In this document: piece after piece, positions 18,475-35,230 of the stretch
Numbering within the stretch: position 1 is the stretch's first letter
Layout: each line of letters starts with the position of its first letter
IMG/VR virus record: IMGVR_UViG_3300032242_001495
Span: 1-41,572 of that record
Source of the DNA: a virus
Reading direction: 5' to 3' (one strand)
Length of the DNA stretch: 41,572 nt
Translations under genes and position numbers: made by a program
The notes under the pieces: generated by a model
Seen by the model: only the letters and a program-made list of their open reading frames with translations
Database searches by the model: none
Told to the model about the DNA's origin: nothing

Positions 18475-18540
18475 GGGGTCTGGTTTGACACGTGGTCAAG
18501 TAATGTGTTAGACTTGATGTATCGGGTTCAACCAGACCCC
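18475..18540 (+). repeat. Inverted repeat enclosing promoter P3
   Basis: GGGGTCTGGTT (18475-18485) is the exact complement of 18530-18540, with promoter P3 in the 44-base loop. Transcripts arriving from upstream could fold it and stall, whereas transcripts started at P3 carry only the right arm. Likely a transcription boundary. Confidence 0.6.
18485..18514 (+). promoter_or_regulatory. Promoter P3
   Basis: TTGACA (18485-18490), 18 bases, TAGACT (18509-18514) preceded by TG (ATGTGT). The dyad TTGAC-N5-GTCAA overlaps the -35 box exactly. The leader contains GAGAGAGAGAGT and AAGAA before the ATG at 18563. Strong family member. Confidence 0.8.
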
Positions 18541-18562
18541 CTAACGAGAGAGAGAGTAAGAA

Positions 18563-19171
18563 ATGAACAAGCACATCGTTCGTCACGAAGACGGAACAGT
18601 AAGCAAGCGCAACAGCGCAAACCGCACCTACCCATTCGCAATTGAAGTCGGACCAGACAATCTGGACATGGCAATCGCAGAGCGTATCGCTTTTGCGGAG
18701 AAGTCACTGGCTAGAGCGCAAGAAAAACTAGCACTGTTCATCGCTAGTGGCAAGAAGGTAAACGTCGTTAAGCGTAGTTTCGTTCGCGACGTTAATCCAG
18801 ACATCGATTACAAGGGCGACCCTTGCTACCACAACTTCGAGTTCAAATTCGCTGGTGATGGCGTCCACACTCCATGGTGCAACAGCAAGGGCGAATCGAC
18901 CGAAGGTTACCCTGAGGTGACCATCGTTTCGTACGAGGACAACTGCGCTAAAATCGAAGCGCGCTTGTACGCCGTAATTGATGCGTGCGAGCAAGAATTA
19001 GCAGAAGCACTAGCGTTGACACCCGAGACCATTAAGCACGTACAGCGCGGTTGGGGCATTATTACTTGGTGCGGTCGTGCGGACCTAGCCGTGAAGCAAC
19101 TGGACAAGTGGAACGCTCACTACGCCAACAGGGGCAACACCGTCCGAATCGTCTCGACCGAAACCCCGTAG
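18563..19171 (+). CDS. Hypothetical early protein, 202 aa
   Basis: Single-gene transcript from P3, ending just before a terminator hairpin at 19178. The product has an N-terminal polar segment, a helix (I-A-E-R-I-A-F-A-E-K-S-L-A-R-A-Q-E-K-L), a middle with scattered Cys/His (P-C-Y-H-N, P-W-C-N-S), a helix with C-E-Q-E-L-A-E-A-L, and a conserved-looking end (G-W-G-I-I-T-W-C-G-R-A-D-L-A). Proteins with such ends are frequent in actinophage early regions, without known function. Confidence 0.65.
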   Translation: MNKHIVRHEDGTVSKRNSANRTYPFAIEVGPDNLDMAIAERIAFAEKSLARAQEKLALFIASGKKVNVVKRSFVRDVNPDIDYKGDPCYHNFEFKFAGDGVHTPWCNSKGESTEGYPEVTIVSYEDNCAKIEARLYAVIDACEQELAEALALTPETIKHVQRGWGIITWCGRADLAVKQLDKWNAHYANRGNTVRIVSTETP

Positions 19172-19177
19172 GGAGCG

Positions 19178-19208
19178 AGGGGGCTGGGCTACGACACGCC
19201 AGTCCCCT
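19178..19208 (+). terminator. Hairpin terminator between P3 and P4 operons
   Basis: AGGGGGCTGG (19178-19187) pairs with 19199-19208 with one G-T pair, loop 11 bases. No T-run follows. It sits after the 18563 gene and directly before promoter P4, the same terminator-promoter arrangement seen at P5 and P7. Confidence 0.6.
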
Positions 19209-19217
19209 ACCCCCAAC

Positions 19218-19274
19218 TTGACAGCCGGTCAACCCATGTGTTAAACTGGTAATATACAGGGCGGGAAACCGCCC
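19218..19274 (+). promoter_or_regulatory. Promoter P4 with GNRA leader hairpin
   Basis: TTGACA (19218-19223), 18 bases, TAAACT (19242-19247) preceded by TG. Exact dyad TTGAC-N5-GTCAA at -35. The leader has a GGGCGG-GAAA-CCGCCC hairpin (19259-19274), a very stable GNRA tetraloop stem near the 5' end, then GAGGGAGTAAGAA before the ATG at 19294. Confidence 0.85.
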
Positions 19275-19293
19275 CCAACAGAGGGAGTAAGAA

Positions 19294-19509
19294 ATGGTTA
19301 AGGTAATCGAAGCAGTCACCACCCGCCCAATCACGATGGCGGTAACAAATCCAGTGACCAAAGTGCGTCAGGGCGCACGGTCATTTGACATGGGTACACA
19401 GGTCTACGCTATCAAGGCAGAAGACAACATGTACGAAATCCGCGTTGCAGGCACACTGTACACGCAACTTGTTTCAGACGCATCATTCACCGAATTGGCA
19501 GGTAAGTAA
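19294..19509 (+). CDS. Small hypothetical early protein
   Basis: First gene of the P4 operon, with a clear GAGGGAG ribosome site. The 71-residue product is beta-rich (V-I-E-A-V-T-T-R-P-I-T-M-A-V, then D-M-G-T-Q-V-Y-A-I-K-A, M-Y-E-I-R-V-A-G), like a small beta barrel. Not recognised. Confidence 0.6.
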   Translation: MVKVIEAVTTRPITMAVTNPVTKVRQGARSFDMGTQVYAIKAEDNMYEIRVAGTLYTQLVSDASFTELAGK

Positions 19510-19511
19510 TC

Positions 19512-20123
19512 ATGGCGACCAAAAATCAATTACTAGCAAAAGCAAGCAAGATGAACGTTCGAGTTGTAGAAGCCTTTGGTGGCGACTACTGTATCGAACT
19601 CGACGCAGTGAATCAAATATTCGCTGGGTACGGCACTAGCCACGGCATGACTGCCAGTGGTGAGTCGCCATTCGACGTATACAACGACGCGTGGTCATTA
19701 CTCAATTACTTGCGACCATGCGAAGGTTGTGACGATGACTGGTGCGGTCTTGACCGCGAGCAGACTAACGCCAAGTTGGGACGCTCAAATGACGTCGCGC
19801 TGGTAGTACCCGAGCGATTCTTTGAGGACCACTTTCAGCGTCAACTCGTTAATGACTCATTCACTTGCGTCAGCAAGGGTAACCGTCTTGCGGTGACCTT
19901 GTCATTTGCTGACGCGGAAGAGTTAATGAGTGACGCGCTGTACTACGCACTCGGCAACATGGACGACATGGACGACAACGGGCTGGTGACCAGCGCGCGG
20001 TACACGGTGCGAGCGTTAGTGCGACAAGGTCTGCACGACTACCACACACGCGACCACAGCGAAGTAAGACTAATCAACAAGTACCGTGCCGAAATGGGCA
20101 TGGCAGAACAGGAGAGCATCTAA
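19512..20123 (+). CDS. Hypothetical early protein, 203 aa
   Basis: It starts two bases after the previous stop and overlaps the next start by one base, so it is part of the P4 operon. It contains C-E-G-C-D-D-D-W-C (a possible metal site, about residues 73-81) and a C-terminal helical part with an acidic D-D-M-D-D-N stretch. Not recognised. Confidence 0.6.
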   Translation: MATKNQLLAKASKMNVRVVEAFGGDYCIELDAVNQIFAGYGTSHGMTASGESPFDVYNDAWSLLNYLRPCEGCDDDWCGLDREQTNAKLGRSNDVALVVPERFFEDHFQRQLVNDSFTCVSKGNRLAVTLSFADAEELMSDALYYALGNMDDMDDNGLVTSARYTVRALVRQGLHDYHTRDHSEVRLINKYRAEMGMAEQESI

Positions 20124-20428
20124 TGAGTTACAAATCACAAGCACTAGCACTAATGGCGCAGTTGGGCGCGGAGCACGCAGGCACGGAGTACTTTGACATC
20201 GAGCAGTGCTGGACCGTGGACTACGCACTACCTAAGGGCAAAGTGTGGGCGCGTCACGGCGAACACATGAGTTGGACACGTGAGTACACGCTGACCGACT
20301 GCTGGAAAGACCTAATCGACCTAGCGCGTGGTGGCGTGGTCGAATGCGAGAACACCTGCGACTGTCGCAACTGGGAGTACGACAACGACGAACCGTCCAT
20401 CTCCCAAATCACACATCAACTGGCGTAA
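20123..20428 (+). CDS. Hypothetical early protein, 101 aa
   Basis: Last gene of the P4 operon, coupled to its neighbour by TAATG. The acidic 101-residue product has several Trp residues and a C-E-N-T-C-D-C-R-N-W segment near the end that could bind a metal. The transcript is followed by a C-rich hairpin. Not recognised. Confidence 0.6.
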   Translation: MSYKSQALALMAQLGAEHAGTEYFDIEQCWTVDYALPKGKVWARHGEHMSWTREYTLTDCWKDLIDLARGGVVECENTCDCRNWEYDNDEPSISQITHQLA

Positions 20429-20440
20429 CCCCGACCCCGA

Positions 20441-20474
20441 CCCCCCCCCCCAAGTCGCTCCCTTGGCTTGGGGG
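20441..20474 (+). terminator. C11 tract and G/C-rich hairpin terminator
   Basis: An 11-base C run (20441-20451) leads into a stem CCCCCAAG (20447-20454) with CTTGGGGG (20467-20474). It closes the P4 operon before promoter P5. The homopolymer length should be treated with caution because such runs are prone to sequencing error. Confidence 0.55.
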
Positions 20475-20510
20475 TTCGGACGCCCCCGACACACGGGGCA
20501 GACCCCCGAC

Positions 20511-20570
20511 TTGACAGCCCGTCAAAGGGTGTGTTAAACTGGTTCTACAAGGGCAACACCGCCCTCGTAG
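20511..20570 (+). promoter_or_regulatory. Promoter P5 with leader hairpin (unknown protein + purB operon)
   Basis: TTGACA (20511-20516), 18 bases, TAAACT (20535-20540) preceded by TG. Exact TTGAC-N5-GTCAA dyad at -35. The leader folds CTACAAGGGC (20545-20554) with 20561-20570 (one mismatch, 6-base loop), then GCGAGAGAAATCGAGAG before the ATG at 20591. Confidence 0.85.
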
Positions 20571-20590
20571 CGAGAGAAATCGAGAGTAAA

Positions 20591-21265
20591 ATGAGCAGAG
20601 TAACAAAGACCAACAGCGTTGAAGGCGTAATGATGGTTGAAGGCGTACAGTACGACGTAAAAGTATCACTACAAAGAAGCCACGGACGTAGCGCACGCCG
20701 TAGCAAAGTCATGATTCACGCAAGCGAAATCGAATCACTAGTTTTCCCTGACGCTCCATACTGGGTATACGATGAAGACAAAGAGACCGCAGAATACAAA
20801 GCCAAGTACGCTACTTGGTACAAGGTTCAGGTCAAGACCGTAGCCAACTGGCGCGCATTCATCGCAGCAGCAGGTCGCGCAGGAATGACCGAGTTCAACT
20901 CGCTTGAACTTAAATGGAATGGTGACAATTTTGAGTTCACCGCACCGCAGACCGCAACCGATTGGTACGACATCAATGACTACGTGGTCCGCATCGCTCC
21001 AGTTGGCACATTTGAAGCCGAGCGCGTAGCAAGTGCAGACCGTAAGACTGAAGCAGACCGCAAGTTAACAACCGCAACCGACCTTGCGCTTGAAGCGTTT
21101 GCTAACACTCCTGAGATGTTTATCGCCCAAATCAATTTCGAGGACTCAACCTACTACTTCGGCAAAGCGAACAACGGCAAGGTCTACCAAGTCAGTTCAA
21201 GCGCGATGTTTGACGTTCGTTACGCGGTAAACCGCAGAGCAGACGCGGACGTGACTAATGCTTAA
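20591..21265 (+). CDS. Hypothetical early protein upstream of purB, 224 aa
   Basis: The ATG at 20591 follows the leader purine tract; in-frame starts farther upstream lie in the promoter. The 224-residue protein has a beta-rich start with M-M-V-E-G-V-Q-Y-D-V-K-V, a middle with W-Y-K-V-Q-V-K-T-V, and an end like a small beta domain (A-Q-I-N-F-E-D-S-T-Y-Y-F-G-K-A). Not recognised. It overlaps purB by 8 bases, so the two should be translated together. Confidence 0.6.
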   Translation: MSRVTKTNSVEGVMMVEGVQYDVKVSLQRSHGRSARRSKVMIHASEIESLVFPDAPYWVYDEDKETAEYKAKYATWYKVQVKTVANWRAFIAAAGRAGMTEFNSLELKWNGDNFEFTAPQTATDWYDINDYVVRIAPVGTFEAERVASADRKTEADRKLTTATDLALEAFANTPEMFIAQINFEDSTYYFGKANNGKVYQVSSSAMFDVRYAVNRRADADVTNA

Positions 21266-22550
21266 CCGATACGAGGACGACTTCATCGCTGAAGTCTGGT
21301 CCGACACAAGCAAAATCGCCCGCTGGGTCGAGGTCGAGTTGGCAGTGCTCAGTGCGCAGGTCGTAGAGGGAGTACTGCCAGACTCGGCTTGGAAGCAAGC
21401 GGTCAATCAGCCAGTGCCGACACCCGAGCAAGTACGCGAGCAAGAGCAGTACACCCGTCACGACGTAGTGGCGTTCCTTGACGCTTGGGGCGCGGAGTTC
21501 GCGCACCTAGGCATGACCAGCAGTGACTTGGTCGAGACCGCGCAGGCACTAGCCATTGAGCAGACCACGCGCTACATCGTCGCCCTCACAGTTGAACTGT
21601 CAACAGAGTTGCACCACCAAGCAACAAAGCACTGGCGCACGTACCGCGTCGGGCGCACCCACGGACAGCGAGGTACGGTGGACCTCTGGGGGCATAGGGT
21701 CGCAGACTTCATGCTTGCGCTCGACCGCGGTGCACTCCGCTTAATCAGCGCGCTGGCGGATTGCGCAGTCGCCAAGATTAGCGGACCGACTGGCACGTAC
21801 GCCGACATCAGTCGCGACGTCGAATGCGTGGTCGCCGAAGAACTTGGGCTACGACCAACACCAGTTGCCAGCCAGATTGTCATGCGTGACTCGCTGGTCC
21901 ATTGGGCGCACTGCCTATCGAATTTGGTGTCGGTGTGCGAAGCCATCGCGACCGAAATCCGCTTGTCCGCACACGGTAACGTGGGCGAGATTCGCGAGTC
22001 ATTCGGCTCACGGCAGAAGGGTTCAAGTGCTATGCCACACAAGCGCAACCCCATCACCGCCGAGCGGATTTGTGGAATGGCGAGACTAGCACGGACCTAC
22101 GCCACATCACTGGAGTCAACCGTGGTCCAGTGGCACGAGCGGGACATGGCGCACTCATCGATTGAGCGAGTGGTCCTGCCCGACTTGAGCCACGCGGTTT
22201 GCTTCGTACTGAGCGAGACCCGCAACTTGGTCGAGAGCATGAAGGTCAACACGCACATCATGTTCGAGCAGGTCATGGTCCACGATGACGTCTACAGCCA
22301 CCGTGTCCTAGCCGCTCTTATGCGGGCGGGGATTCCGCGGAAGCAGGCGCACGACGTGGTCCAAGAAGCGTCACGGGACGCCCACAAGACTTCCTTTGGG
22401 CGCGAAATACGGGCGAAGGTATCCAAAGCCCTTCCAGATACCTTCGTGGACTGGGAAGAGGTATTCTCGCTGGAGAGTTCCGTCCAAGGACTGAACTGGC
22501 TAGGCGAGATTTTGAAAGACACACAACACAACCAACTAGGAGAAAACTAA
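21258..22550 (+). CDS. purB: Adenylosuccinate lyase (PurB)
   Basis: A full-length, apparently active lyase of 430 residues, close to the usual bacterial length. It belongs to the fumarase/aspartase superfamily and removes fumarate from adenylosuccinate or SAICAR. Key parts: R-H-D-V-V-A-F (His68), T-S-S-D (87-90), R-T-H-G-Q (133-137, His135) and the signature S-S-A-M-P-H-K-R-N-P (256-265) on the flexible catalytic loop. It is expressed with a protein of unknown function from P5. In this phage, which carries a PurZ-like enzyme, its likely substrate is succino-2-amino-dAMP, giving dZMP. As I recall, known Z-genome phages leave this step to the host enzyme. It could also simply boost adenine nucleotide supply. 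Confidence 0.92.
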   Translation: MLNRYEDDFIAEVWSDTSKIARWVEVELAVLSAQVVEGVLPDSAWKQAVNQPVPTPEQVREQEQYTRHDVVAFLDAWGAEFAHLGMTSSDLVETAQALAIEQTTRYIVALTVELSTELHHQATKHWRTYRVGRTHGQRGTVDLWGHRVADFMLALDRGALRLISALADCAVAKISGPTGTYADISRDVECVVAEELGLRPTPVASQIVMRDSLVHWAHCLSNLVSVCEAIATEIRLSAHGNVGEIRESFGSRQKGSSAMPHKRNPITAERICGMARLARTYATSLESTVVQWHERDMAHSSIERVVLPDLSHAVCFVLSETRNLVESMKVNTHIMFEQVMVHDDVYSHRVLAALMRAGIPRKQAHDVVQEASRDAHKTSFGREIRAKVSKALPDTFVDWEEVFSLESSVQGLNWLGEILKDTQHNQLGEN

Positions 22551-22834
22551 TGTACGATAACGCCGACCGCGTAGAAGAGACCGACCACGCAGGGCAGATG
22601 GCGTTGACCGCTATCCGCTTGAAGAAGACTGGACAGGTCGTAGCCAAATACCCGTCAGTCGATGGAATGCGCACCGTCTACGGACTGCCACTGCCAGCCA
22701 GCACTTGGTTGTTGATTGACGTGCTACACGATTTTAGCAACTGGACCACCGCACGCTACCACAGCGAGGGCAACTGGATTGCAGACAAGAACGCTGTGGT
22801 TAAGCAGGCACTAATGTTGTTGGCGAACGAATGA
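22550..22834 (+). CDS. Hypothetical protein downstream of purB
   Basis: Start overlaps the purB stop (TAATG). The 94-residue product has an acidic N-terminus, beta-like middle (A-L-T-A-I-R-L-K-K-T-G-Q-V-V-A) and a W-rich stretch (N-W-T-T-A-R-Y-H). Not recognised. Next start overlaps as ATGA. Confidence 0.6.
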   Translation: MYDNADRVEETDHAGQMALTAIRLKKTGQVVAKYPSVDGMRTVYGLPLPASTWLLIDVLHDFSNWTTARYHSEGNWIADKNAVVKQALMLLANE

Positions 22835-23328
22835 GTTACCACATCAGGGACGAGCGTGGCGTAGCCATGTGTAAGACGACGTACCCCGACAATAACGACC
22901 GACTGTGCGTTCTATGCGAAATGTACGCCAACACGGACAAAGACCACCCGTGTGACGTGTACCAAGAGCAGAGCGGATTCGTCGCCAGATGCGAATGTGG
23001 CTGGAGTAGTCGAGTCAAACCAACTCCTAGTCACGCCGAATCTGAGTGCCGAGCGCACTGGCGCGAGACGCTAGGTGAACTAGTGGTCTCAAAGCCAAAG
23101 AAACCGAAACCCGAAGCCAAGACGAAAGTGTGCCACTGCGGTTGCACCGAGTTGACAGCAGGCGGACGGTTCAAAGCAGGACATGACGCCCGATGGCTAG
23201 CCAAACTACGGTTAGCCGTCAACACAGGCGAAATGTCCGAGCAAGAAGCCAAGCGTCAGGTTGGCGAAGTAAGCGAAAAACTGTTGCTGAAATTTCAGCA
23301 CGCACTACAAGGAAGAGTAGTATCGTAA
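22831..23328 (+). CDS. Cys-rich zinc-binding protein
   Basis: This 165-residue protein has two probable metal sites: C-V-L-C-E-M with D-H-P-C-D and then C-E-C-G-W (about 26-57), and C-H-C-G-C-T-E-L-T-A-G-G-R-F-K-A-G-H-D (about 106-124), a motif often seen in actinophage proteins of unknown role. A Lys-rich linker (K-P-K-K-P-K-P-E-A-K) separates them. It lies between purB and a nuclease gene in one overlapping operon, so a DNA-binding role is plausible but unproven. Confidence 0.62.
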   Translation: MSYHIRDERGVAMCKTTYPDNNDRLCVLCEMYANTDKDHPCDVYQEQSGFVARCECGWSSRVKPTPSHAESECRAHWRETLGELVVSKPKKPKPEAKTKVCHCGCTELTAGGRFKAGHDARWLAKLRLAVNTGEMSEQEAKRQVGEVSEKLLLKFQHALQGRVVS

Positions 23329-24194
23329 TGCCCATCATCTCATTTAGCGAATTGGACACATATCGACAGTGTCCGTTCAAGCACCAACTCGCGTACGGCG
23401 AACGCTGGGTCTCACCCGTAGACTCAGCAGCGCTGGACCGAGGTAAGCGAGTGCACACCGTCCTCGAAAACTGGTACGAAGCATTGAAGCGTGGAGACAA
23501 CACCACGATTGAACAGGTCGCACGCGAAAGCGAGGTCGTATTCGACCAGAATGGCGATTACCTAGACGACATCGGCGAACTCGTACACTGGATTGTGCAG
23601 GGCTACGGCGAACAGTACGGGCGAGACGAACAATGGAAAGTAGTCGAGGTCGAACACGACTTCGTGCTACCGCTACCCAAGCCCGACGGCAAGAACAGTA
23701 ATATCAAGTTGAAGGGCAAGATTGACTTACTGGTCAACTGGCGCGGACGCTTGTGGCTGGTCGACCACAAGACAGCAGCGCGACTACCGAGCGACAAAGA
23801 ACTCGACCTCGACGTCCAGTTCGGGCTGTATGCGTGGGCGATGCGTCAACTTGGCTACCCAATCCACGGCATGATTTACAACACGCTTCGCACACAACGC
23901 AACAAGGGCGAGATGGCGTTAACCGACCGATTCAGTCGGACACTCATCGCAAAGAGCGACGCCGAGTTAGACCGTCTCGCACTGGACGCGTACCAAGACG
24001 CATATCAAGCGTACGCTGGCATACGCAAATCAAACAAAACGCAGGTGGACCTACCGCGCCATTACAACACCGACACGTGCAGGTGGCGTTGCCCGTACAC
24101 CGAAGCGTGCTTGTTCGGAGCGAAAGACGGACGCGGTGGCTCGCGCGGTTACTTGATTGAGACGGGTTTCGTTCAAAACTTCACCCGACACTAA
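23328..24194 (+). CDS. Cas4/RecB-like PD-(D/E)XK nuclease with iron-sulfur cluster
   Basis: The ATG at 23328 (TAATG overlap) is the true start; the upstream in-frame extension overlaps another gene. The 288-residue protein starts S-F-S-E-L-D-T-Y-R-Q-C-P-F-K, then R-G-K-R-V-H-T-V-L-E-N. The nuclease core is L-K-G-K-I-D-L-L, followed by L-W-L-V-D-H-K-T-A and a helix with Q-F-G-L-Y-A-W-A. The end has C-R-W-R-C-P-Y-T-E-A-C. One N-terminal plus three C-terminal Cys is the 4Fe-4S arrangement of Cas4, AddB and RecB-family phage exonucleases. It probably works in recombination or DNA repair with the ATPase downstream. No CRISPR array is present. Confidence 0.85.
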   Translation: MPIISFSELDTYRQCPFKHQLAYGERWVSPVDSAALDRGKRVHTVLENWYEALKRGDNTTIEQVARESEVVFDQNGDYLDDIGELVHWIVQGYGEQYGRDEQWKVVEVEHDFVLPLPKPDGKNSNIKLKGKIDLLVNWRGRLWLVDHKTAARLPSDKELDLDVQFGLYAWAMRQLGYPIHGMIYNTLRTQRNKGEMALTDRFSRTLIAKSDAELDRLALDAYQDAYQAYAGIRKSNKTQVDLPRHYNTDTCRWRCPYTEACLFGAKDGRGGSRGYLIETGFVQNFTRH

Positions 24195-24195
24195 C

Positions 24196-24258
24196 TTGTC
24201 AGGCTGGCATTCTATGTGCTAGCCTTGTAGGACACCGAGCGCGACGGTCAACTCGCGC
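24196..24258 (+). promoter_or_regulatory. Promoter P6 with leader hairpin (Sak4/DUF669 operon)
   Basis: TTGTCA (24196-24201), 18 bases, TAGCCT (24220-24225) preceded by TG (ATGTGC). The -35 dyad is degraded. The leader has GCGCGA (24239-24244) paired with TCGCGC (24253-24258), then a purine/A-rich stretch and GGAAGG before the ATG at 24289. Confidence 0.7.
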
Positions 24259-24288
24259 AGAGAAAACAAACAACAGGAAGGCAAGCGA

Positions 24289-25119
24289 ATGGCAACTGCT
24301 AAGAAAGCGAGAGCAACACTCGCGGACCAGCGCGAAGTAGTGAAGATTCTTTACTACGGAGACGCAGGTTCAGGCAAAACAACTGCGATGTCAAGTGCAT
24401 CGCGTCTAGGTCCGATTCTCTACATTGACGCAGAGAGCGGACTAAAGCGAGGACCACTGGCTCGGCTCGGGATTCCGACCGACCAGATTGAACCGCATCA
24501 AACCATCACATTCGAATCGCTAGAGCAGGTCTACTTCGAGGTCAAAGCACGACTCGACGACGACCCAACTGCGATTTCGGCTGTGATTTTGGACTCAGTT
24601 ACCGAGATTCAAAAGATTCTGCTCGAGAACATCATCGGCAAAGCGGTCACCAAGGCGTCAAGCCGTGGCATGGACCGCGACCCGTTTCAGATTGACCGAG
24701 CAGATTGGGGCGTCGTAACCGAACAAATGCGACGACTCACACGACGATTCCGAGACCTGCCATGTCACGTGGCATTCGGAGCGTTACCTAAGCGCGAAGT
24801 AGATGACGACGGAAGTGTCACTTACTCGCCAGCGTTGACACCAGCATTCCAGACAGACCTCATGGGATACGTTGATGTCATCATTCACACCGAGGTTCGC
24901 GAAATCGGTGGCAAAGAGTTCCACATCGGTACATGTAAACCAGTTGGCAAGTTCACTGGCAAAGACCGATTTGGCATTTTGCCACAGACTCTCGTTGACC
25001 CAACACTGGACCGTGTTGTCGCATACGTAAATGGCGACCTCACAGCCGAAACCGATTCACGCCAAAAAGAAGCGCGTGAAGCATCACAACAGCGCGAAAC
25101 CGCGCAGGAAGAGAAATAA
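24289..25119 (+). CDS. Sak4-like RecA-fold ATPase (single-strand annealing / recombination)
   Basis: The 276-residue protein has an early Walker A (G-D-A-G-S-G-K-T-T, residues 24-32) and a Walker B-like strand (S-A-V-I-L-D-S-V-T-E, near 105), as in phage Sak4 and related AAA ATPases of the RecA core type. Later parts include R-F-R-D-L-P-C-H-V-A-F-G-A and a charged, Gln/Glu-rich tail. Sak4 proteins help single-strand annealing and often sit beside an SSB-like protein and an exonuclease, exactly the neighbours here. Confidence 0.8.
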   Translation: MATAKKARATLADQREVVKILYYGDAGSGKTTAMSSASRLGPILYIDAESGLKRGPLARLGIPTDQIEPHQTITFESLEQVYFEVKARLDDDPTAISAVILDSVTEIQKILLENIIGKAVTKASSRGMDRDPFQIDRADWGVVTEQMRRLTRRFRDLPCHVAFGALPKREVDDDGSVTYSPALTPAFQTDLMGYVDVIIHTEVREIGGKEFHIGTCKPVGKFTGKDRFGILPQTLVDPTLDRVVAYVNGDLTAETDSRQKEAREASQQRETAQEEK

Positions 25120-25120
25120 C

Positions 25121-25552
25121 ATGAAACTCAATAAGGTGATGGCGTCAGCCGTCGAAGAAGCATCAGGTGGTTCAGGCTTTGAACCGTTAGAAGAGGGTGT
25201 TTACACTGTGCGCTTGCGTGGTGTTGACGTCCGTGAAGGACAAAAAGGTCCGTACTGGGTTTGGGAGTTCGAGATTCCAGACGGTGAAGAGTTCGCAGGT
25301 CGTCGCTTCTGGTTGAACACCAGCCTGAGCGAAGCAGCACTGTGGAAGTTGAAGGAAGTGTTCGGTGCGTTCGGTGCTACACCAGCCACAGACACCGATG
25401 AACTGTTGGGCAAGCGTGTGCGCGCTGTTGTCATTCAGCGCACAATCCAAATGGGTGCACGTGCTGGTGAAGTAACCAACCAGATTGAGACAGTCAAGCC
25501 AGTTGGCGACGCAGACGTAGCCGACAGCAAGAAAGACGACTTCGCATTCTAA
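25121..25552 (+). CDS. DUF669-like single-strand DNA-binding protein
   Basis: The ATG at 25121 is right after the ATPase stop; the longer upstream frame is a shadow. The 143-residue protein has a short helical start, a beta core with V-Y-T-V-R-L-R-G-V-D-V-R-E-G-Q-K-G-P-Y-W-V-W-E-F-E-I-style alternation, and F-W-L-N-T-S-L-S. It ends in an acidic tail K-K-D-D-F-A-F. The DUF669 family pairs with Sak4-type ATPases in phages, and the acidic D-D-F-x-F end resembles SSB tails that recruit partners. The SSB role is inference. Confidence 0.72.
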   Translation: MKLNKVMASAVEEASGGSGFEPLEEGVYTVRLRGVDVREGQKGPYWVWEFEIPDGEEFAGRRFWLNTSLSEAALWKLKEVFGAFGATPATDTDELLGKRVRAVVIQRTIQMGARAGEVTNQIETVKPVGDADVADSKKDDFAF

Positions 25553-25568
25553 CCAACTAACCACTCGG

Positions 25569-25603
25569 ACGGTCGGCATGCTCATAACGGGTGTGCCGAC
25601 CGT
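25569..25603 (+). terminator. Hairpin after DUF669 gene
   Basis: A perfect 10-bp stem (25569-25578 with 25594-25603) with a 15-base loop, 17 bases after the stop. It is followed by TTAGAGAGAACTC before the next ATG, so it may double as a leader hairpin like those at the P-family promoters, although no matching promoter is clear upstream. Confidence 0.6.
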
Positions 25604-25624
25604 GCCGTCTTAGAGAGAACTCAA

Positions 25625-28024
25625 ATGCCAAACAAAGAACAAGCACTAGAACTATTTGACGCAGGTCTGCTCCCACTGCCAGCCCGAGGTAAAGCACCGA
25701 CGGTCTCATGGCGTGACGTAGCGCAGGACCGCCCATCGCGAGCAAAAATCGCCAGTTGGTTCGACAAAGACCGCAACATCTGGATAGCCACAGGCGAACC
25801 GAGCGGAATCGTCGTCATCGACTGCGACTCACGCGGTGGTGACGTTTATTGGCGCGAACGGCTAGGCGCAGAACTGCTAGACAACACCACATGTGTCAAG
25901 ACCAGCAAAGGCTACCACTACTGGCTACGCATTCCAGTTGGAGAGAGCATCAGGTCGTGGTCCAGCGGAATCGCACAGCGAGAAATGGGCATCTCATTCG
26001 ACATTCGCGGTGACGGTGGTGGCGTAATCGCTCCGCCGAGCGTACATGAGTCAGGTCATGTTTACACATTCGTGCGAGGGCTGGATTGCCTGCAGGACGC
26101 ACCGATAGCCAAGATTCAACAGACCGCAACCGACAGCGACACAGACCCAAACGGACCAAAAAGCCTGCTATCCAGCCTACTAAGTGACCCACCATCTGAG
26201 GGCGGTCGCGACGTGTGGATAACTCGAGTCGCAGGTCACCTAGCCAAAATCGTGCCGTACCGCGACGCCTATCTGTCGCTGTTGCACACCATTAACCGCG
26301 CGCTGCCTGAACCGCTGACCGAGGACGAAATCGAGAAGAAAATCGGCGTGTGGGACAAAGAGCACGCCAAGCCAGACGTACCGACAGCCGACTCAGGTTG
26401 GCTTATTGGTGACGGGCTTTGGCTCTACACCGAGACCGTAACTGAAAGCGGTGGAGTTCGCGTGTCTGGAACAGACCGCTGGTGCAACGCCGACCTCGAA
26501 GCGCGCGGTGTTATCGACGGACCGCTCGGTCGCACCTACGCCGTCACGCTCCATCGGTCCGACGGCGAGAGTCGCGACGACCTAATCAAGGGTTCAATGC
26601 TTGGACGCATGAACGACACACTCAGTTGGCTAGCCAAGCACGGCGTCTCCGTTGTAGCCCCAAAGAACGACAACCGTAGCCGCGTCGCTGTAGGCGCACG
26701 ATTGCTCCGCTATTTAGAGAGCCAACAGCCGACGCTGTACAAGGAAGTACCGCACCTTGGCTGGGTGGACGGTATCGGATTCGTCACGCATGAGGGCGTA
26801 ATCACGGCGTCTGGTATGAAAGCCCACGAAGGTGTGATGCCAAATCCAGCCCTGCAGAACCTTGCTCCGTTCGTGTACGGAATGGGCAACCCCGACCGCG
26901 CAGTGGAAGTCTTGCGCGAAGTGTTGACCTTCCACGACGAGACCGTGACCGCTGTATTCGGCGCGTGGTGGATAGCCACACTGCTCAAAGGTCAGTACAT
27001 GGGCGCAATCGGTCACTTCCCTTACTTCGCTATTGAAGCGTCCAGCGAGAGCGGTAAAACTCGAGGATTCTTTAGGCTAATGCTCAACTTGGCTGGCACA
27101 ACGCGATTCGGCGAGTGGACCAAGGCAGCAACACGCGACGCAATTGGCGCGCACCGAAACGGAATCGTTCACATTGACGACTCAAACCGACTAGACAACA
27201 TCGCAGACTTACTGCGCCAAGCAACTGGCGAAGGGTCTGAAGGCAAGAAGGCTGCAGACAACACAGGCACAGTTGATATCAAGTTGGTGTCACCAGTTTT
27301 AATCACGGGCGAATCGCTTGGCGAATTGGGCGGTGGCGAGAAAGCACAGCGCGACAGGCGCGTATTGCTAACTGACGTGCCAAGTCCAGTTGGACGCAAA
27401 AGCACGAAGGGCGACTACCCACAATGGGACGACGTTAAACGACTCGAGCGCGTTGAAGGCGATTTGAGTAAATACGCTGGTACGATGGTCATGCTAGCAC
27501 TTCAGCGTGAACACATGATTGGCGAAGTAACTGACCTTAGAACTGGACATGGTCGTCACCACGAAGTGCTAGCGATTCTTCGAAATGCTGCTAGGATTCT
27601 AGCGGACATCATCGACGACGAGAGTGTCGTGCGCCTAGTGGACGCATGGTGCGAAGGACAGCGCGATTTCGGCTCAGAGAACACGCTGGTAACGAAGTTA
27701 CTACCGTGGGCTATCATTGACGAGTTTGGGCAGATGATTGACCGCATGGGGGGCGAGCCACCAGCGTTCGTTGAGAATGGTCTGGTCTACCTACACCCTG
27801 ACCGCTTGGCTGCTGCTTGGCAGAAGGAATTGAGGAAGCGCGGTAAGAACGACCGCCTAGATAGTCCCGAAGCCATCAGAGCGCAGCTCCGTGCCCTCGG
27901 AATAACTGGGTCGGTGTTCAAGCGCACTGGAGTCGGCAGAGACGCTCCGAAAGCCCGTTACGTGGCTCTAGACGGTACTTGGTCAGAGCGCGTCATCGAA
28001 ATCGCAAACAACGGTTGGGAGTAA
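25625..28024 (+). CDS. Primase-polymerase / helicase (PrimPol + DUF927-like ATPase)
   Basis: A 799-residue replication protein. Residues 1-145 form a Prim-Pol domain of the archaeo-eukaryotic primase family: V-V-I-D-C-D-S-R (D66, D68), T-S-K-G-Y-H-Y-W (H98), S-F-D-I-R-G (D126). About 260-390 is a DUF927-type region. The ATPase follows with E-A-S-S-E-S-G-K-T-R (Walker A, 472-479), then a helicase-like part ending D-R-R-V-L-L-T-D-V. The C-terminal ~180 residues look like a DNA-binding tail. It should prime and unwind DNA. PrimPol proteins are known from the Z-genome cyanophage S-2L. It starts the replication block after the hairpin at 25569. Confidence 0.85.
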   Translation: MPNKEQALELFDAGLLPLPARGKAPTVSWRDVAQDRPSRAKIASWFDKDRNIWIATGEPSGIVVIDCDSRGGDVYWRERLGAELLDNTTCVKTSKGYHYWLRIPVGESIRSWSSGIAQREMGISFDIRGDGGGVIAPPSVHESGHVYTFVRGLDCLQDAPIAKIQQTATDSDTDPNGPKSLLSSLLSDPPSEGGRDVWITRVAGHLAKIVPYRDAYLSLLHTINRALPEPLTEDEIEKKIGVWDKEHAKPDVPTADSGWLIGDGLWLYTETVTESGGVRVSGTDRWCNADLEARGVIDGPLGRTYAVTLHRSDGESRDDLIKGSMLGRMNDTLSWLAKHGVSVVAPKNDNRSRVAVGARLLRYLESQQPTLYKEVPHLGWVDGIGFVTHEGVITASGMKAHEGVMPNPALQNLAPFVYGMGNPDRAVEVLREVLTFHDETVTAVFGAWWIATLLKGQYMGAIGHFPYFAIEASSESGKTRGFFRLMLNLAGTTRFGEWTKAATRDAIGAHRNGIVHIDDSNRLDNIADLLRQATGEGSEGKKAADNTGTVDIKLVSPVLITGESLGELGGGEKAQRDRRVLLTDVPSPVGRKSTKGDYPQWDDVKRLERVEGDLSKYAGTMVMLALQREHMIGEVTDLRTGHGRHHEVLAILRNAARILADIIDDESVVRLVDAWCEGQRDFGSENTLVTKLLPWAIIDEFGQMIDRMGGEPPAFVENGLVYLHPDRLAAAWQKELRKRGKNDRLDSPEAIRAQLRALGITGSVFKRTGVGRDAPKARYVALDGTWSERVIEIANNGWE

Positions 28025-28026
28025 CC

Positions 28027-28302
28027 ATGGTAAGAGACCTATTCATGTACGCAGGGCTGTTCACAGCGGGATTGACGGTTGGGGGGTTCGTGTCGGTCTG
28101 GGTTGTAGCCCCCAAACCGCCTGAGCCGAAAAAGGCTAAGGTGACGGTGACCGTGTCCAAAATCTGCACCCACGCTCTGGTCGAGTACAAAAACGACCAC
28201 CCAATCATCACATTCAGCCCGTGCTCATGTGAGACAGAGGGCGTGGCACAGGGTGAGACACAAATCGAACAAGACAAGGAGTCAAGCGGTGTCTCGGATT
28301 AG
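28027..28302 (+). CDS. Small membrane-anchored protein
   Basis: The ATG at 28027 is used, two bases after the primase stop; the longer frame to 27979 overlaps the primase. The 91-residue product has one membrane segment near the start (L-F-M-Y-A-G-L-F-T-A-G-L-T-V-G-G-F-V, about 5-22), then V-S-V-W, a Pro/Lys stretch, a short beta region with two or three Cys and an acidic tail. It could be a small lipoprotein-like or anchored phage protein. Function unknown. The gene's 3' half lies inside the iteron-like cluster. Confidence 0.55.
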   Translation: MVRDLFMYAGLFTAGLTVGGFVSVWVVAPKPPEPKKAKVTVTVSKICTHALVEYKNDHPIITFSPCSCETEGVAQGETQIEQDKESSGVSD

Positions 28303-28470
28303 AAGCCTATGTGCCACAATTAGTGCCACAGGGGGGTTGAGACACACAGAACCCCGTCGTTTGGGGAAGAAGGACCTTGTGTCTCGGTGTCTCATATTTT
28401 GGAATAGAATTAATTACGTGTGCGCGCATGCGCGCCTAAACCTACTCGTTCTCTCGGAAGGGTGAGACAC
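28231..28470 (+). other. Iteron-like repeat cluster, candidate replication origin
   Basis: Within 240 bases the 7-mer GAGACAC or its complement GTGTCTC occurs six times: 28255-28261, 28289-28295, 28339-28345, 28379-28385, 28387-28393 and 28464-28470, plus a near copy at 28231. GTGCCAC or GTGGCAC occurs three more times (28243, 28311, 28323). An A/T-rich stretch follows (28394-28417), then the perfect palindrome GCGCGCATGCGCGC (28422-28435). The cluster lies between the primase and polymerase genes and partly in non-coding DNA, as many phage origins do. A regulatory operator array is the alternative. Confidence 0.6.
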
Positions 28471-30315
28471 ATGAAGATAGATAAACCAACCGAAGTGCTA
28501 CCAGATGTTACAGGACTGGTCGTCGCCGTGGATACTGAGACCAGCGGTCTACACGTTGATGATGGCGCGACCGTGTCAGTAGTTAGTGTGGCGTGGCGAG
28601 AAGAAGGCACACAGCCACGACTAGAAGCAGGCATTGTCGGATTTGCGTTCCCGTTCGACCAAGGACGCTTCGCTGAAAAGACAGGCACAACCGCCAGCCC
28701 GTTCGACGAGGACATCAACCTCGACCGAGACGAGTGGGCGCACCTGATGTTCTGGCTCAGTAAGCAACAGTTAGTGTTCCACAATGCCAAGTTCGACCTG
28801 CACATGCTAGCCGAAGGCACGCGTGAATGGGGTGGCGTGGACCTAGTGGCACAGACCATCTGGGACACCCAAATCACACATCAACTGTTCGAACCGCTGT
28901 TGACCAGTGGACTCAAACCGACCTGCGCACGACTGTTCGGCGAACACGTGGCGCAAGAGCAACACGACGTCCAAACCGCGCTACGCAAGCAGGGTACAGG
29001 GCTGACCAAACGGTACGACCTATTGGACTGGTCAGTTGTCGGACCGTACGCAACACAAGACGCGATGCTGACCTACCGCCTAGCCGAATGGCAGTGGCGC
29101 AGACTTGAGACCGACGACCAGCACCTAGCCGTACTAGCGGACCGCGAAGTCGAACTAATGAAGGTCCTATACAAAATGGAAAAGCGCGGTATCGGATTCG
29201 ACGCCAAGCGAGCCGAAAAATCGGCGGACATCTTGCGCGCGCTCAAGGTCGAACTCGAAAACGAATTGCCGTTCAAGCCGACCATTCCAGCGGCTAAAGC
29301 CTACTATTATGGCGAACTGGGTCTGATACCGAGCAAAGTCGGCGCAAGCGGGTCACCAAGCCTAGACAATGAGACCGTGACCAAACTAGCCAAGAAGGAC
29401 GTGCCACACGCGAAAACGTACCTACGCTGGACTGAAGTGAAAAGCGCGCTAGAGAAATGGTACGGCAACTGGGGCAAACTGGTTGGACAAGATGGGCGAC
29501 TACGCACGAACTTCAGGCAGACCAAAGTAGTTAGTGGTCGGTTGAGTGTAGAGCGTGTGCAGTTGCAGGCGATTCCGCACGACTACCAACTGAAACAACT
29601 GTTCGGCGATGGAGTTGAAGGCGTGCGTGCGTTCTTCCAACCGAAAGGCAACCACCAGTTGTGGGAGATTGATATTAGCCAAGCCGAGATTCGCGTAGCC
29701 ACAGCGGTGTCTAACTGCGTGCCAATGCGCGAGCGATTAATGCGTGGCGAGGACGCACACGACGCGACCACAATGTTGGTATTTGGCATTACTAAAGACA
29801 GCCCTGATTGGGAGCAGTACCGCTCAGTCGGCAAGCGACTCACGTTTGGTATGTTGTACGGCGCGGGAGTGCGCACTACACGCGAGCAAATCAAAATGCA
29901 CACTGGCGTTGATGCGAGTGAGGGCGAAGTGCGCAAATGGGTGGACCAGTACCGCAGTGCGTTCCCCGAGTTCGTGCGCGCTGCAAAGTACGCAGACCAA
30001 GCAGTGCAGAAGCGTGGATACGTGAAACTGATTAGTGGACGCTTGCGTCACTGGGGTCTCGATGAGCAAAGTCATAAAGCGTTTAACGCAGTCATTCAAG
30101 GTGGAGTGGCGGAAGCGATGAAAATGGCGATGGTCGAAGTTGAACGTCAATTCCCTGATTTGTTGCTGTTACAGATTCATGATTCGATGGTGTTGGAAGT
30201 TCCAAACAAGAACGCGGAGCAAGTTGTCCAGCAAGTGCGTGATGTGCTAGTGGGCGTGTTTGAGTCGCTGTTCAACATCGAGTTCAAGGCGGACTATAAA
30301 CAATGGGCAAAATGA
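28471..30315 (+). CDS. Family A DNA polymerase with 3'-5' exonuclease (DpoZ candidate)
   Basis: The ATG at 28471 is chosen over the GTG at 28420 because GGAAGGG precedes it at good spacing. The 614-residue enzyme has an exonuclease start (V-A-V-D-T-E-T, D21 and E23), then the polymerase motifs: A, E-I-D-I-S-Q-A-E-I-R (D401); B, R451-x3-K455-x3-F459-x3-Y463; C, Q-I-H-D-S (H570, D571, S572). Most family members have H-D-E in motif C. No 5'-3' exonuclease domain is present, as usual in phages. Its presence with purZ and mazZ suggests the polymerase that works with dZTP (DpoZ in known Z phages). Its gene stop overlaps the next start. Confidence 0.85.
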   Translation: MKIDKPTEVLPDVTGLVVAVDTETSGLHVDDGATVSVVSVAWREEGTQPRLEAGIVGFAFPFDQGRFAEKTGTTASPFDEDINLDRDEWAHLMFWLSKQQLVFHNAKFDLHMLAEGTREWGGVDLVAQTIWDTQITHQLFEPLLTSGLKPTCARLFGEHVAQEQHDVQTALRKQGTGLTKRYDLLDWSVVGPYATQDAMLTYRLAEWQWRRLETDDQHLAVLADREVELMKVLYKMEKRGIGFDAKRAEKSADILRALKVELENELPFKPTIPAAKAYYYGELGLIPSKVGASGSPSLDNETVTKLAKKDVPHAKTYLRWTEVKSALEKWYGNWGKLVGQDGRLRTNFRQTKVVSGRLSVERVQLQAIPHDYQLKQLFGDGVEGVRAFFQPKGNHQLWEIDISQAEIRVATAVSNCVPMRERLMRGEDAHDATTMLVFGITKDSPDWEQYRSVGKRLTFGMLYGAGVRTTREQIKMHTGVDASEGEVRKWVDQYRSAFPEFVRAAKYADQAVQKRGYVKLISGRLRHWGLDEQSHKAFNAVIQGGVAEAMKMAMVEVERQFPDLLLLQIHDSMVLEVPNKNAEQVVQQVRDVLVGVFESLFNIEFKADYKQWAK

Positions 30316-30719
30316 AGAATCTGCACGTGGTCAGCATTGACCCTGCAGACAAGCACGTGGGCGTGTGTTTTTGGCTAGGTGGCTCAATCATCGAAGCAAA
30401 AACGATTACGCCGATTCAGATGTGCGAAATCATCGAAGTCACTCAATTCGACGCCGTTGTGATTGAAGAGTTCAGGCTCTACCCATGGATGGCGCAAAAC
30501 CTCGGATTTAATGATATGAAAACGAGCCAAATGATTGGCGCATTGAAGTTCTTGGCTAATCGCATCGGGTCGCCAGTGCATATGCAACCTGCGAGCATAA
30601 AGAAGCCAGCGTTCGCTCGCATGAAGGCAGAGGGATTTGAGATGCCTAAGGGAACGCAACACGCGAAAGACGCCGTCGCCCACGGGTTTTGGTGGCACTA
30701 CGGGTCGAAAACCCCGTAA
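30303..30719 (+). CDS. RuvC-like Holliday junction resolvase
   Basis: The RNase H-fold acidic motifs of RuvC-type nucleases are in order: V-S-I-D-P-A-D-K-H-V-G-V (Asp about 13), A-V-V-I-E-E-F (Glu about 55-56) and H-A-K-D-A-V-A-H-G (Asp about 123). The length (138) fits small phage resolvases. It probably cuts branched DNA before packaging. The ATG at 30312, overlapping the polymerase stop as ATGA, is an equally possible start three codons in. It ends in a terminator hairpin. Confidence 0.75.
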   Translation: MGKMKNLHVVSIDPADKHVGVCFWLGGSIIEAKTITPIQMCEIIEVTQFDAVVIEEFRLYPWMAQNLGFNDMKTSQMIGALKFLANRIGSPVHMQPASIKKPAFARMKAEGFEMPKGTQHAKDAVAHGFWWHYGSKTP

Positions 30720-30727
30720 CGACGGGG
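30712..30727 (+). terminator. Short hairpin terminator at the end of the replication block
   Basis: CCCCGT (30712-30717) pairs with ACGGGG (30722-30727) around AACG. It is preceded by AAAA and followed by CTTCTGGG, and overlaps the resolvase stop codon. Promoter P7 follows 26 bases later. Confidence 0.6.
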
Positions 30728-30752
30728 CTTCTGGGCGTCGGCGTGTCCCGAC

Positions 30753-30811
30753 TTGACGCTGGGGCAAGCCATGTGTTAAACTGGTTTTACGAAGTCAAAC
30801 GGGGCTTCGTA
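30753..30811 (+). promoter_or_regulatory. Promoter P7 with leader hairpin
   Basis: TTGACG (30753-30758), 18 bases, TAAACT (30777-30782) preceded by TG (ATGTGT). The dyad is degraded to TTGAC-N5-GGCAA. The leader has TACGAAG (30788-30794) paired with CTTCGTA (30805-30811), then GAGAGAGAGAAGG before the ATG at 30834. Drives the modification operon. Confidence 0.82.
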
Positions 30812-30833
30812 GAGAGAGAGAAGGCAACTAATC

Positions 30834-32528: not shown

Positions 32529-33566
32529 ATGTCGAAAGTCAGTGTAGTAGTCGGAGGTCAATTCGGCTCAGAAGGTAAGGGCGCAGTCGCTGGACACCTA
32601 AGTCAGGGCGACGATTACAGCGTCATCGGAGTTCGCGTAGCAGGACCAAATGCTGGTCACACCGTCTACGGAAACGGACCAGACGGCGAGGACAACTACG
32701 CGTGGAAACTGCGCACTGTTCCAGTCACAGCCGTAACAAATCCGCTCAGTACGCTCATCATCGCAGCGGGGTCAGAGATTGACTTTGACGTCTTGCGAAG
32801 CGAAATAGACGCGCTGGACAAAGCGGGGTACAACGCAAGCGACCGACTGTTCATCGACCGCGAAGCAACCGTAATCGACGACAAGCACATCAGGATTGAG
32901 CAGACCAACACAATGCACGAACGCCTAGGCTCAACAGCCAAGGGAATCGGAGCAGCGAGAGCAGCGCGCATTATGCGGACCGCTGAACTGTACGGTGGCG
33001 ACGTCGATACAACCGAAATGCTGAACGACAGCCTGAACAGCCCGTTCAACCACATCATCATCGAAGGCACACAAGGCTACGGGCTAGGGTCGCACGCTGG
33101 CTACTACCCATTCTGCACCAGTAGCGACTGCCGAGCCATCGACTTCCTAGCCATGGCAGGAATAAGCCCGTGGCACGCAGAAGTGACCGAACTGGACGTT
33201 TGGGTAGTCGCACGCACTCACCCGATTCGCGTGGCAGGAAATAGCGGTCCTTTGCTCGGAGAGACCAATTGGGAGCAACTAGGGCTACCAGAGGAACGGA
33301 CAACCGTCACCAATAAAGTACGCCGAGTCGGAAAGTTCGACCCTGAACTGGTCGCCGAAGCGGTTCGTGCTAATGGTGGCGCACCTACGGCGCGACTCGC
33401 GCTGACCATGTTTGACTACGTGTTTCCGCATCTCGCGGGTGCTACAATTGTAACGCAAGAAGATGAAGAAGTCGTGTCTTACATTAAAACTATTCAGCAT
33501 ATGACAGGAGCAAGCGTCGCCCTAGTCGGAACAAGCCCGACCACCATGGCGGCTCTTAATTGGTAA
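32529..33566 (+). CDS. purZ: PurZ: N6-succino-2-amino-2'-deoxyadenylate synthase (PurA-like)
   Basis: A 345-residue adenylosuccinate synthetase-like enzyme, much shorter than bacterial PurA (about 430). The P-loop is G-G-Q-F-G-S-E-G-K-G with Ser14 where PurA has its catalytic Asp. As I recall, this Asp-to-Ser change marks PurZ, which joins dGMP and aspartate to make the precursor of 2-aminoadenine deoxynucleotide. Retained: N-A-G-H-T (His44), G-S-T-A-K-G (134-139), E-G-T-Q-G (179-183), Y-P-F-C-T-S-S-D (193-200), R-T-H-P-I-R-V (229-235) and R-R-V-G-K-F-D-P (265-272). It heads an overlapping operon with mazZ and dut. Plain PurA activity on IMP is the alternative, but the Ser14 substitution argues against it. 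Confidence 0.88.
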   Translation: MSKVSVVVGGQFGSEGKGAVAGHLSQGDDYSVIGVRVAGPNAGHTVYGNGPDGEDNYAWKLRTVPVTAVTNPLSTLIIAAGSEIDFDVLRSEIDALDKAGYNASDRLFIDREATVIDDKHIRIEQTNTMHERLGSTAKGIGAARAARIMRTAELYGGDVDTTEMLNDSLNSPFNHIIIEGTQGYGLGSHAGYYPFCTSSDCRAIDFLAMAGISPWHAEVTELDVWVVARTHPIRVAGNSGPLLGETNWEQLGLPEERTTVTNKVRRVGKFDPELVAEAVRANGGAPTARLALTMFDYVFPHLAGATIVTQEDEEVVSYIKTIQHMTGASVALVGTSPTTMAALNW

Positions 33567-33869: not shown

Positions 33870-34223
33870 ATGATGGAAGGCACAGAGAAAAAAACCGCAA
33901 GACAACTGCGACTCGACGAGTTCGCAGAATGGTGGATAGCAACTTCTGAAGAAGCACTCGACACGATGATGCCGAAAGTGCGAGAGTACGGAAGCACCGA
34001 CCTACAAATCGTAGGCGAAGCCATGATGAAGATGATGCCACAACTCGAAGGCAAAGTCACACCAGCAGAGTTGGGTATCGCGTTTTACCTGCTCGGCAAA
34101 GTCGGTCGTGTAATCGGCGGTTACGTTGACGGACACGCGCCAAGCGACGACACTTGGTACGACATTGAAGTGTACGCAAAGATGGCGCGACGTACGCGTG
34201 AGACAGGGGGCATGTTCCCATGA
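33870..34223 (+). CDS. mazZ: MazZ-like MazG-type nucleotide pyrophosphohydrolase
   Basis: The 117-residue helical protein has the K-V-R-E-Y-G-S-T-D-L stretch (36-45) that MazG-like proteins carry as K-x2-x-Y-G-x2-D-L, a helix with L-G-K-V-G-R-V-I-G-G (74-83) and D-D-T-W-Y-D-I-E-V-Y-A-K-M (93-105), the acidic metal-binding end. MazZ in known Z phages turns dGTP into dGMP, the PurZ substrate, and this gene shares the purZ operon. Start at 33870; a second ATG one codon in is possible. The stop overlaps the next start as ATGA. Family call is by motif and context; nucleotide preference is inferred. Confidence 0.78.
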   Translation: MMEGTEKKTARQLRLDEFAEWWIATSEEALDTMMPKVREYGSTDLQIVGEAMMKMMPQLEGKVTPAELGIAFYLLGKVGRVIGGYVDGHAPSDDTWYDIEVYAKMARRTRETGGMFP

Positions 34224-34630
34224 TGATTTACCTCGCAGGACCAATCGACAACGCAAATATGGCGTGCTTTGAGCAACGCCGACAAATCAAGGACACATTA
34301 AAAACGCTTGACCACGTTGTGTTCGACCCAGCAAGCGCGTGGACCGTGCCGATTAATGCTGAGTTAGACGGCAGATTGCAGGACCTAAACGAAAAAGTCG
34401 TTTTGGCGTGTGACATGGTTGTGGCGTTTTTAGTGCCGAACGTGCTGTCAATCGGCACAGTCATGGAAATCGTCTACGCACACGACATCGGCACGCCAGT
34501 CGTTGTTCATATGCCAGACATCAACCCGAGTTGGGCGTTAGCGTCGCTAGAATCAGTGGTCATTACGCACACTGATACTGAACTAATTGAAGCAGTGCAG
34601 GACGTGATACCGAGAAAAAAACTGTGGTGA
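34220..34630 (+). CDS. Nucleoside 2-deoxyribosyltransferase-like protein
   Basis: The 136-residue protein has the family start Y-L-A-G-P-I-D, a middle helix (E-K-V-V-L-A-C-D-M-V-V-A-F-L) and I-G-T-V-M-E-I-V-Y-A-H with Glu83 at the place of the catalytic Glu. The family breaks or exchanges N-glycosidic bonds of deoxynucleosides or deoxynucleotides (Rcl/DNPH1 acts on dNMPs). It is translationally coupled to mazZ, so it probably acts on the same nucleotide pool. A dAMP- or host-nucleotide-clearing role, in place of DatZ, is speculation. Overlaps the next start as GTGA. Confidence 0.72.
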   Translation: MMIYLAGPIDNANMACFEQRRQIKDTLKTLDHVVFDPASAWTVPINAELDGRLQDLNEKVVLACDMVVAFLVPNVLSIGTVMEIVYAHDIGTPVVVHMPDINPSWALASLESVVITHTDTELIEAVQDVIPRKKLW

Positions 34631-34710: not shown

Positions 34711-34817
34711 GAGAAGAAATCGAGATTTCGCTGTGTAAGCGACATCACTACAAGGGCGTAGCCCTAGCAATCAACTGCCATGAGTGCAGAGCAGAAGCAG
34801 ATGAGGACCAAGAATGA
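34707..34817 (+). CDS. Tiny Cys/His protein (36 aa)
   Basis: ATGA overlaps at both ends (34707 and 34814) place it firmly in the operon. It has C-K-R-H-H-Y and C-H-E-C, which could bind one zinc, and an acidic end. Function unknown. Confidence 0.5.
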   Translation: MREEIEISLCKRHHYKGVALAINCHECRAEADEDQE

Positions 34818-35230
34818 GTGAGATTCTGTACAAAGGCACAGCACCAACACGTGGCTACCACGACGACGCTGGATTCGACTTGTACGTAAATGGCGACTGG
34901 ACCATCAACCCGCAAGAGTTCGTAGACATCGACCTCAACTGTGCGGTGGCGTTTCCGACTGGCATGTGGGGCTTGCTCACTGGACGGTCGAGCACACTAC
35001 GCAAGCGAGGGCTTTTAGTGGCGCAGGGCGTGATTGACACAGGCTACACAGGACCGCTGTTCGCTGGCGTGTGGAATCTGACAAACGAACCCGTTGTTGT
35101 AACTCATGGAGACCGAATCGCACAGTTGATTCCAATGTACAACGTGGCGCAACTGACTAGTATGATTGAAGCGGTCGAGTTTCCCGAGACACAACGGGGT
35201 GGTAATGGATTCGGCTCAACAGGCACATAG
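34814..35230 (+). CDS. dut: dUTPase (trimeric)
   Basis: All five trimeric dUTPase motifs are present: D-A-G-F-D-L (18-23), G-R-S-S (57-60), G-V-I-D-T-G-Y-T-G (72-80), G-D-R-I-A-Q-L-I (99-106) and R-G-G-N-G-F-G-S-T-G (128-137). Length 138 is normal. It makes dUMP and keeps uracil out of DNA. It is the last nucleotide gene of the operon beginning at purZ. Confidence 0.95.
   Translation: MSEILYKGTAPTRGYHDDAGFDLYVNGDWTINPQEFVDIDLNCAVAFPTGMWGLLTGRSSTLRKRGLLVAQGVIDTGYTGPLFAGVWNLTNEPVVVTHGDRIAQLIPMYNVAQLTSMIEAVEFPETQRGGNGFGSTGT

Follow-up and report, generated by a model that had tools for sequence, protein, structure and literature searches.

The biosynthesis of 2-aminoadenine (Z) described for phages phiVC8, SH-Ab 15497, S-2L, Ghobes, and Wayne involves PurZ, DpoZ, DutZ, DmtZ, DatZ, MazZ, and DUF5664; of these, DmtZ and DutZ have been described as pool-shaping enzymes in PurZ0-type phages (PMC12884076). 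Published accounts leave the second step, conversion of N6-succino-2-amino-dAMP (dSMP) to dZMP, to the host: it was assigned to host enzymes in the 2026 paper on Ghobes and Wayne, in which PurB or a lyase is never mentioned (PMC12884076), and bacterial PurB has been named for it (PMC12783734). No assay of a phage PurB was found in the openly readable papers searched. However, an adenylosuccinate lyase is annotated in the GenBank Z phages Hiyaa, Galactica, Keanu, Spocter, Ghobes (gene 36), Sapo, Frizzle, and Archimedes. The earlier note on this DNA stated that described Z phages rely on the host for this step, which agrees with the published accounts, but its suggestion of novelty falls to these annotations; phage PurB was apparently overlooked in openly readable papers, yet annotated in sequenced isolates.

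The DNA analyzed here (the window, meaning the whole stretch of 41,572 nucleotides) also encodes a lyase of its own. The gene is real and makes functional sense, and a route with a phage-supplied lyase would be a variant of the Z pathway already known. The PurBs of the eight actinophages belong to the same family as that of the window, with 35 to 37% identity in the aligned part, and purZ is present in the same genomes. In Ghobes, purB heads a helicase/nuclease/RecA/primase-polymerase module much as it does in the window, whereas the Ghobes-type protein, unlike the window's, is without most of the C-terminal domain. The features of the window are as follows.

20505..20577, plus strand: copy of the promoter-like repeat (TTGACA-18-TAAACT, extended -10), ahead of the purB-overlapping gene
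20591..21265, plus strand: uncharacterized gene without a Pfam match; its stop overlaps the purB start
21258..22550, plus strand: purB, adenylosuccinate-lyase-type protein, intact ORF from ATG to stop, 430 aa
22550..22834, plus strand: uncharacterized gene without a Pfam match; its start overlaps the purB stop
23310..24194, plus strand: PD-(D/E)XK (Cas4/RecB-like) nuclease, in the replication module downstream of purB
24289..25119, plus strand: Sak4/RecA-like protein, same replication module
25625..28024, plus strand: primase-polymerase (Prim-Pol)
28420..30315, plus strand: DpoZ-like family A DNA polymerase (NF038381, 332.5 bits; cut-off, 350)
30747..30819, plus strand: copy of the promoter-like repeat, ahead of gene 30834, the gene for a Mom-like protein, and purZ
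32529..33566, plus strand: purZ, succino-2-amino-deoxyadenylate synthase (NF038379, 344.5; cut-off, 300)
33870..34223, plus strand: conserved purZ-linked protein with no assigned function; in compact operons, its homologue is encoded between purZ and purB
34220..34630, plus strand: nucleoside deoxyribosyltransferase-family protein, DmtZ-like
34814..35230, plus strand: dUTPase-family protein, DutZ-like

From the described Z set, the window therefore has PurZ, a DpoZ-like polymerase, and DmtZ-like and DutZ-like proteins, so that the PurZ0-type set is present by family. Judged from these assignments, the window virus carries the gene set for swapping adenine with Z. PurZ passes its model and has the motif GGQFGSEGKG, in which the diagnostic Ser replaces the Asp of PurA; the polymerase misses the cut-off of NF038381, though this was the best-scoring of all models. 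purB lies upstream of purZ with 9,981 bp between the two genes, the 10 kb given in the earlier note. A 73-nt promoter-like repeat, with the core TTGACA/TTGACG-18-TAAACT/TAGACT, has four copies in the window (at 18479, 19212, 20505, and 30747); the third is followed by one overlapping gene and then purB, and the fourth by two genes and then purZ. The claim that purB and purZ stand under separate copies of one promoter family thus holds at the level of sequence matches, by which the repeats are candidate promoters. The gene at 20591..21265 and purB are probably cotranscribed, given their overlap. All four copies (18479-30819) stand before early-region genes.

We put the probability at roughly 80% that the product of the window gene is an active lyase of the PurB type with which the phage carries out step two of Z synthesis. 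In this scheme, PurZ would join aspartate and dGMP to form dSMP, the phage lyase would split dSMP into dZMP and fumarate, and host kinases would convert dZMP to dZTP for use by the DpoZ-like polymerase. By the chemistry of the family, the Ser256/257 loop of the lyase would take the succinyl C-beta proton, His135 would protonate N6, and fumarate would be released. Flux would then pass through the phage gene rather than that of the host. Such a role is by far the best reading of the genomic pattern, in which the lyases track purZ, often within the same operon. If carriage of a lyase gene proves common among Z phages, this step could be a bottleneck during infection, Z synthesis could rely on the host less than has been supposed, and the phages may offer a ready enzyme set for cell-free or engineered production of Z-DNA.

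Scanning viral contigs with the single sequences of the window PurB and PurZ returned no relatives, and a megablast of the window against phages matched nothing; alignment queries recovered relatives where the single-sequence scans gave none. Only 104 PurB relatives turned up when 2.9 million viral contigs were scanned with a degenerate pattern. The co-occurrence that the earlier note proposed to look for was found in both directions. First, a PF00206 lyase was present in 38 of 80 purZ-bearing IMG/VR contigs. Second, purZ with the Ser motif was present in 38 of the best 80 of the 104 PurB contigs. Another 10 of these 80, all in the wider clade of the window, have no purZ and end 0.9 to 5.2 kb past purB, whereas clade members that are long enough have purZ 5.6 to 7.3 kb after purB; the remainder mostly encode PurBs that do not belong to the Z clade, and their contigs are large or very short. 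L011 and L012, whose PurBs are closest to that of the window (60 to 62% identical), both have purZ (70 to 73%) and share the gene order of the window, namely, purB, nuclease, Sak4, primase-polymerase, and dpoZ. Close relatives carrying purB without purZ, which would have counted against the proposal, were therefore not seen, the negatives in the closest groups being truncated contigs.

In GenBank phages, tblastn matched 38 records for PurB-like proteins and 198 for PurZ-like proteins. Setting aside probable contaminants and unannotated assemblies left 11 actinophage PurB records, five from Streptomyces phages (Hiyaa twice, Galactica, Keanu, and Spocter) and six from Gordonia phages (Ghobes twice, Frizzle, Sapo, and Archimedes twice). 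A PurZ-type synthetase gene, annotated as "PurA-like," was present in 11 out of 11. Ghobes and Archimedes occur as IMG/VR records too. The records of Listeria, Enterococcus, and Staphylococcus "phages" were rejected as probable contamination because the neighbors are bacterial chromosome genes (for instance, the Listeria record has a purE-purK-purB-purC-type run), and so was Microcystis phage MaAM05, whose PurB has a bacterial-looking neighborhood and groups with that of Vampirovibrio. Most GenBank purZ phages, e.g., the complete Arthrobacter ones, have no purB, which means that host PurB is sufficient for many.

The arrangement of the genes bears on whether purB is instead an auxiliary metabolic gene for purine supply in general, raising AMP (and IMP, via SAICAR cleavage) during infection, its company with purZ reflecting a shared need for nucleotides. 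This is consistent with active-site residues that are those of bifunctional PurB, and several large viral contigs pair PurB with PurA-type synthetases. However, in 26 contigs purB lies within about 350 bp of purZ. In 16 of them, purZ is followed by a small conserved gene and then by purB, usually with a dUTPase-family gene next; in eight, purB and purZ form a divergent pair 100 to 134 bp apart; and in two, the order is dpoZ-purB-purZ. Furthermore, tblastn with actinobacterial PurC and PurD found neither purC nor purD in the purZ loci examined, a result that counts against a package of general purine genes, and no other purine-synthesis gene was seen among the window proteins scanned. A general purine role is therefore unlikely, though it is the most probable of the alternatives.

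The protein itself is a full-length lyase with all catalytic motifs, as the earlier note had described it. It scored 111.5 bits against PF00206 (cut-off, 27) and 323.7 bits over most of TIGR00928 (purB), narrowly missing the cut-off of 326.2, for which reason we file it as PurB type rather than as a proven adenylosuccinate lyase; the C-terminal ADSL_C domain (PF10397) scored 30.0 bits, slightly below the cut-off of 32.7. The solved structures closest in sequence are the PurBs of Thermotoga maritima, Bacillus anthracis, Bacillus subtilis, and Staphylococcus aureus. An AlphaFold model (pLDDT 93.7, pTM 0.91) had B. anthracis PurB (2PFM) as its top match in the PDB (TM 0.92), with TM 0.86 to 1C3C and 2X75, and the predicted fold is that of the aspartase/fumarase superfamily, PurB type. 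Of the AMP contacts and catalytic residues described for S. aureus PurB (PMC2917274), the set R4, Y5, H68, D69, H141, Q212, S262, K268, E275, S306, and R310 is complete in the window protein, which has R4, Y5, H68, D69, S88, K262, N264, E269, S300, and R304, together with H135 (S. aureus His141), Q206 (Gln212), and S256/S257 (Ser262/263). S89 corresponds to Thr95 of S. aureus and is Ser in most sampled cellular PurBs. Thus, the window PurB shares the fold, the catalytic His/Ser/Lys/Glu set, and the phosphate and base contacts with cellular PurBs of the Thermotoga/Bacillus type (TIGR00928; 1C3U, 2PFM, and 2X75), to which it is approximately 31 to 44% identical. It differs from them in being phage encoded and linked with purZ rather than with purA, purC, or purD, in being a few residues shorter near residue 78, and in its diverged C-terminal part.

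The lyase superfamily also includes argininosuccinate lyase, aspartase, and pcaB, and the enzyme might act on a different succinylated or fumarate-yielding substrate unrelated to Z. The narrow miss of the curated PurB cut-off and the loss of much of the C-terminal domain in part of the Z-phage group would fit such an activity. Against it, the PurB-specific contacts to the purine nucleotide (R4/Y5, D69, H135, Q206, S300, and R304) are kept and purB is linked with purZ, which makes a substrate of this kind quite improbable.

The origin of the gene was examined in a quick IQ-TREE tree of 116 PurBs, in which 45 purZ-linked PurBs, two members from truncated contigs, and four actinobacterial cellular PurBs were set off from the other cellular and viral PurBs by a fully supported branch (SH-aLRT). 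Constraining the 47 Z-phage rows to one clade gave a higher likelihood (p-AU 0.864), a group picked after the first tree had been seen and in a tree with long branches, and the result is tentatively compatible with a single origin of the Z-phage PurBs. Their nearest cellular kin is the actinobacterial housekeeping PurB. For instance, one close cellular relative (L207) sits in a purA-purD-purB-purC run and another (L209) has purD nearby; prophage or paralogue status was rejected for both because this context is one of housekeeping purine genes, which points to a host-type purB as the likely source of the phage gene. The gene was probably recruited from a cellular PurB and then kept within Z phages. 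Across 14 pairs of phage purB relatives, dN/dS was 0.04 to 0.23, which means that the compared genes are under purifying selection; for the window gene, the one available comparison was with a distant relative (dS ~2, dN 0.33). That purB is a recent passenger or a decaying, functionless copy of a host gene is very hard to believe given this selection in other pairs of the group, an intact ORF within a replication module conserved in relatives 60 to 62% identical, and a search that found no near-identical host copy.

Returning to a lyase that serves Z synthesis, the earlier note raised a preference for the Z precursor and a comparison of the pocket with cellular PurB. This comparison gave one enriched loop change, and no feature of the sequence amounts to proof of a dedicated lyase. 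The residues that contact the ligand do not differ from those of ordinary PurB, so the sequence permits cleavage of adenylosuccinate or SAICAR just as well. One position stood out: Ala183 (S. aureus numbering), whose carbonyl holds the base-contacting Gln212 in S. aureus PurB, is Pro in 61 of 66 purZ-linked PurBs compared to 12 of 80 cellular ones. However, Pro also occurs in two of the close actinobacterial cellular PurBs, and the tree offers only three or four independent contrasts with no consistent direction. It was therefore dropped as a Z-specific mark, being found in actinobacterial and other cellular PurBs and inseparable from kinship. The C-terminal part is where the Z-phage PurBs have diverged most, and in about two-thirds of them, the window's not included, the catalytic loop has GSSSM in place of GSSAM. 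These differences count as leads and no more. It is conceivable, though we would sooner doubt it than accept it, that this lineage is a specialized dSMP lyase in which activity on SAICAR and adenylosuccinate is relaxed or lost and which makes the route from dGMP to dZMP complete without host PurB. The Ghobes-type and compact-operon PurBs are about 360 to 377 aa long, with most of the C-terminal domain missing (e.g., L003, 12064-13197; L009, 1351-2448; L010, 1246-2343; and L105).

Some further observations were made on the genes around purZ and purB. Seven contigs of 62 to 427 kb (L288, L292, L293, L295, L300, L301, and L303) encode PurB together with a PurA-like protein in which the P-loop sequence is GSSGKG or GSCGKG rather than GDEGKG or GSEGKG, possibly another synthetase subtype by this motif. 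Directly upstream of purZ in the window (31831-32496) is a Mom-like DNA modification protein (PF25680, 131 bits), of which tblastn found none in other purZ loci and a search run without a positive control found none in 50 other purZ records. Mom targets the N6 of adenine, and in the window phage the target would therefore have to be Z or residual A. The protein at 33870-34223 belongs to a family of ~100 to 150 aa, usually encoded directly 3′ of purZ, with the invariant residues W21 W22, K36, Y40, E67, G76 K77, R80, D94, and D98. It has a confidently predicted four-helix fold (pLDDT 90) with no Pfam match and no significant fold match in the PDB; a MazG-like assignment was dropped because Pfam support was absent and the fold match was not significant. 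It may be a further Z-pathway protein. Finally, the DmtZ-like (34220-34630) and DutZ-like (34814) proteins are separate in the window, as they are in Ghobes, whereas several other purZ loci have a fusion of the two.
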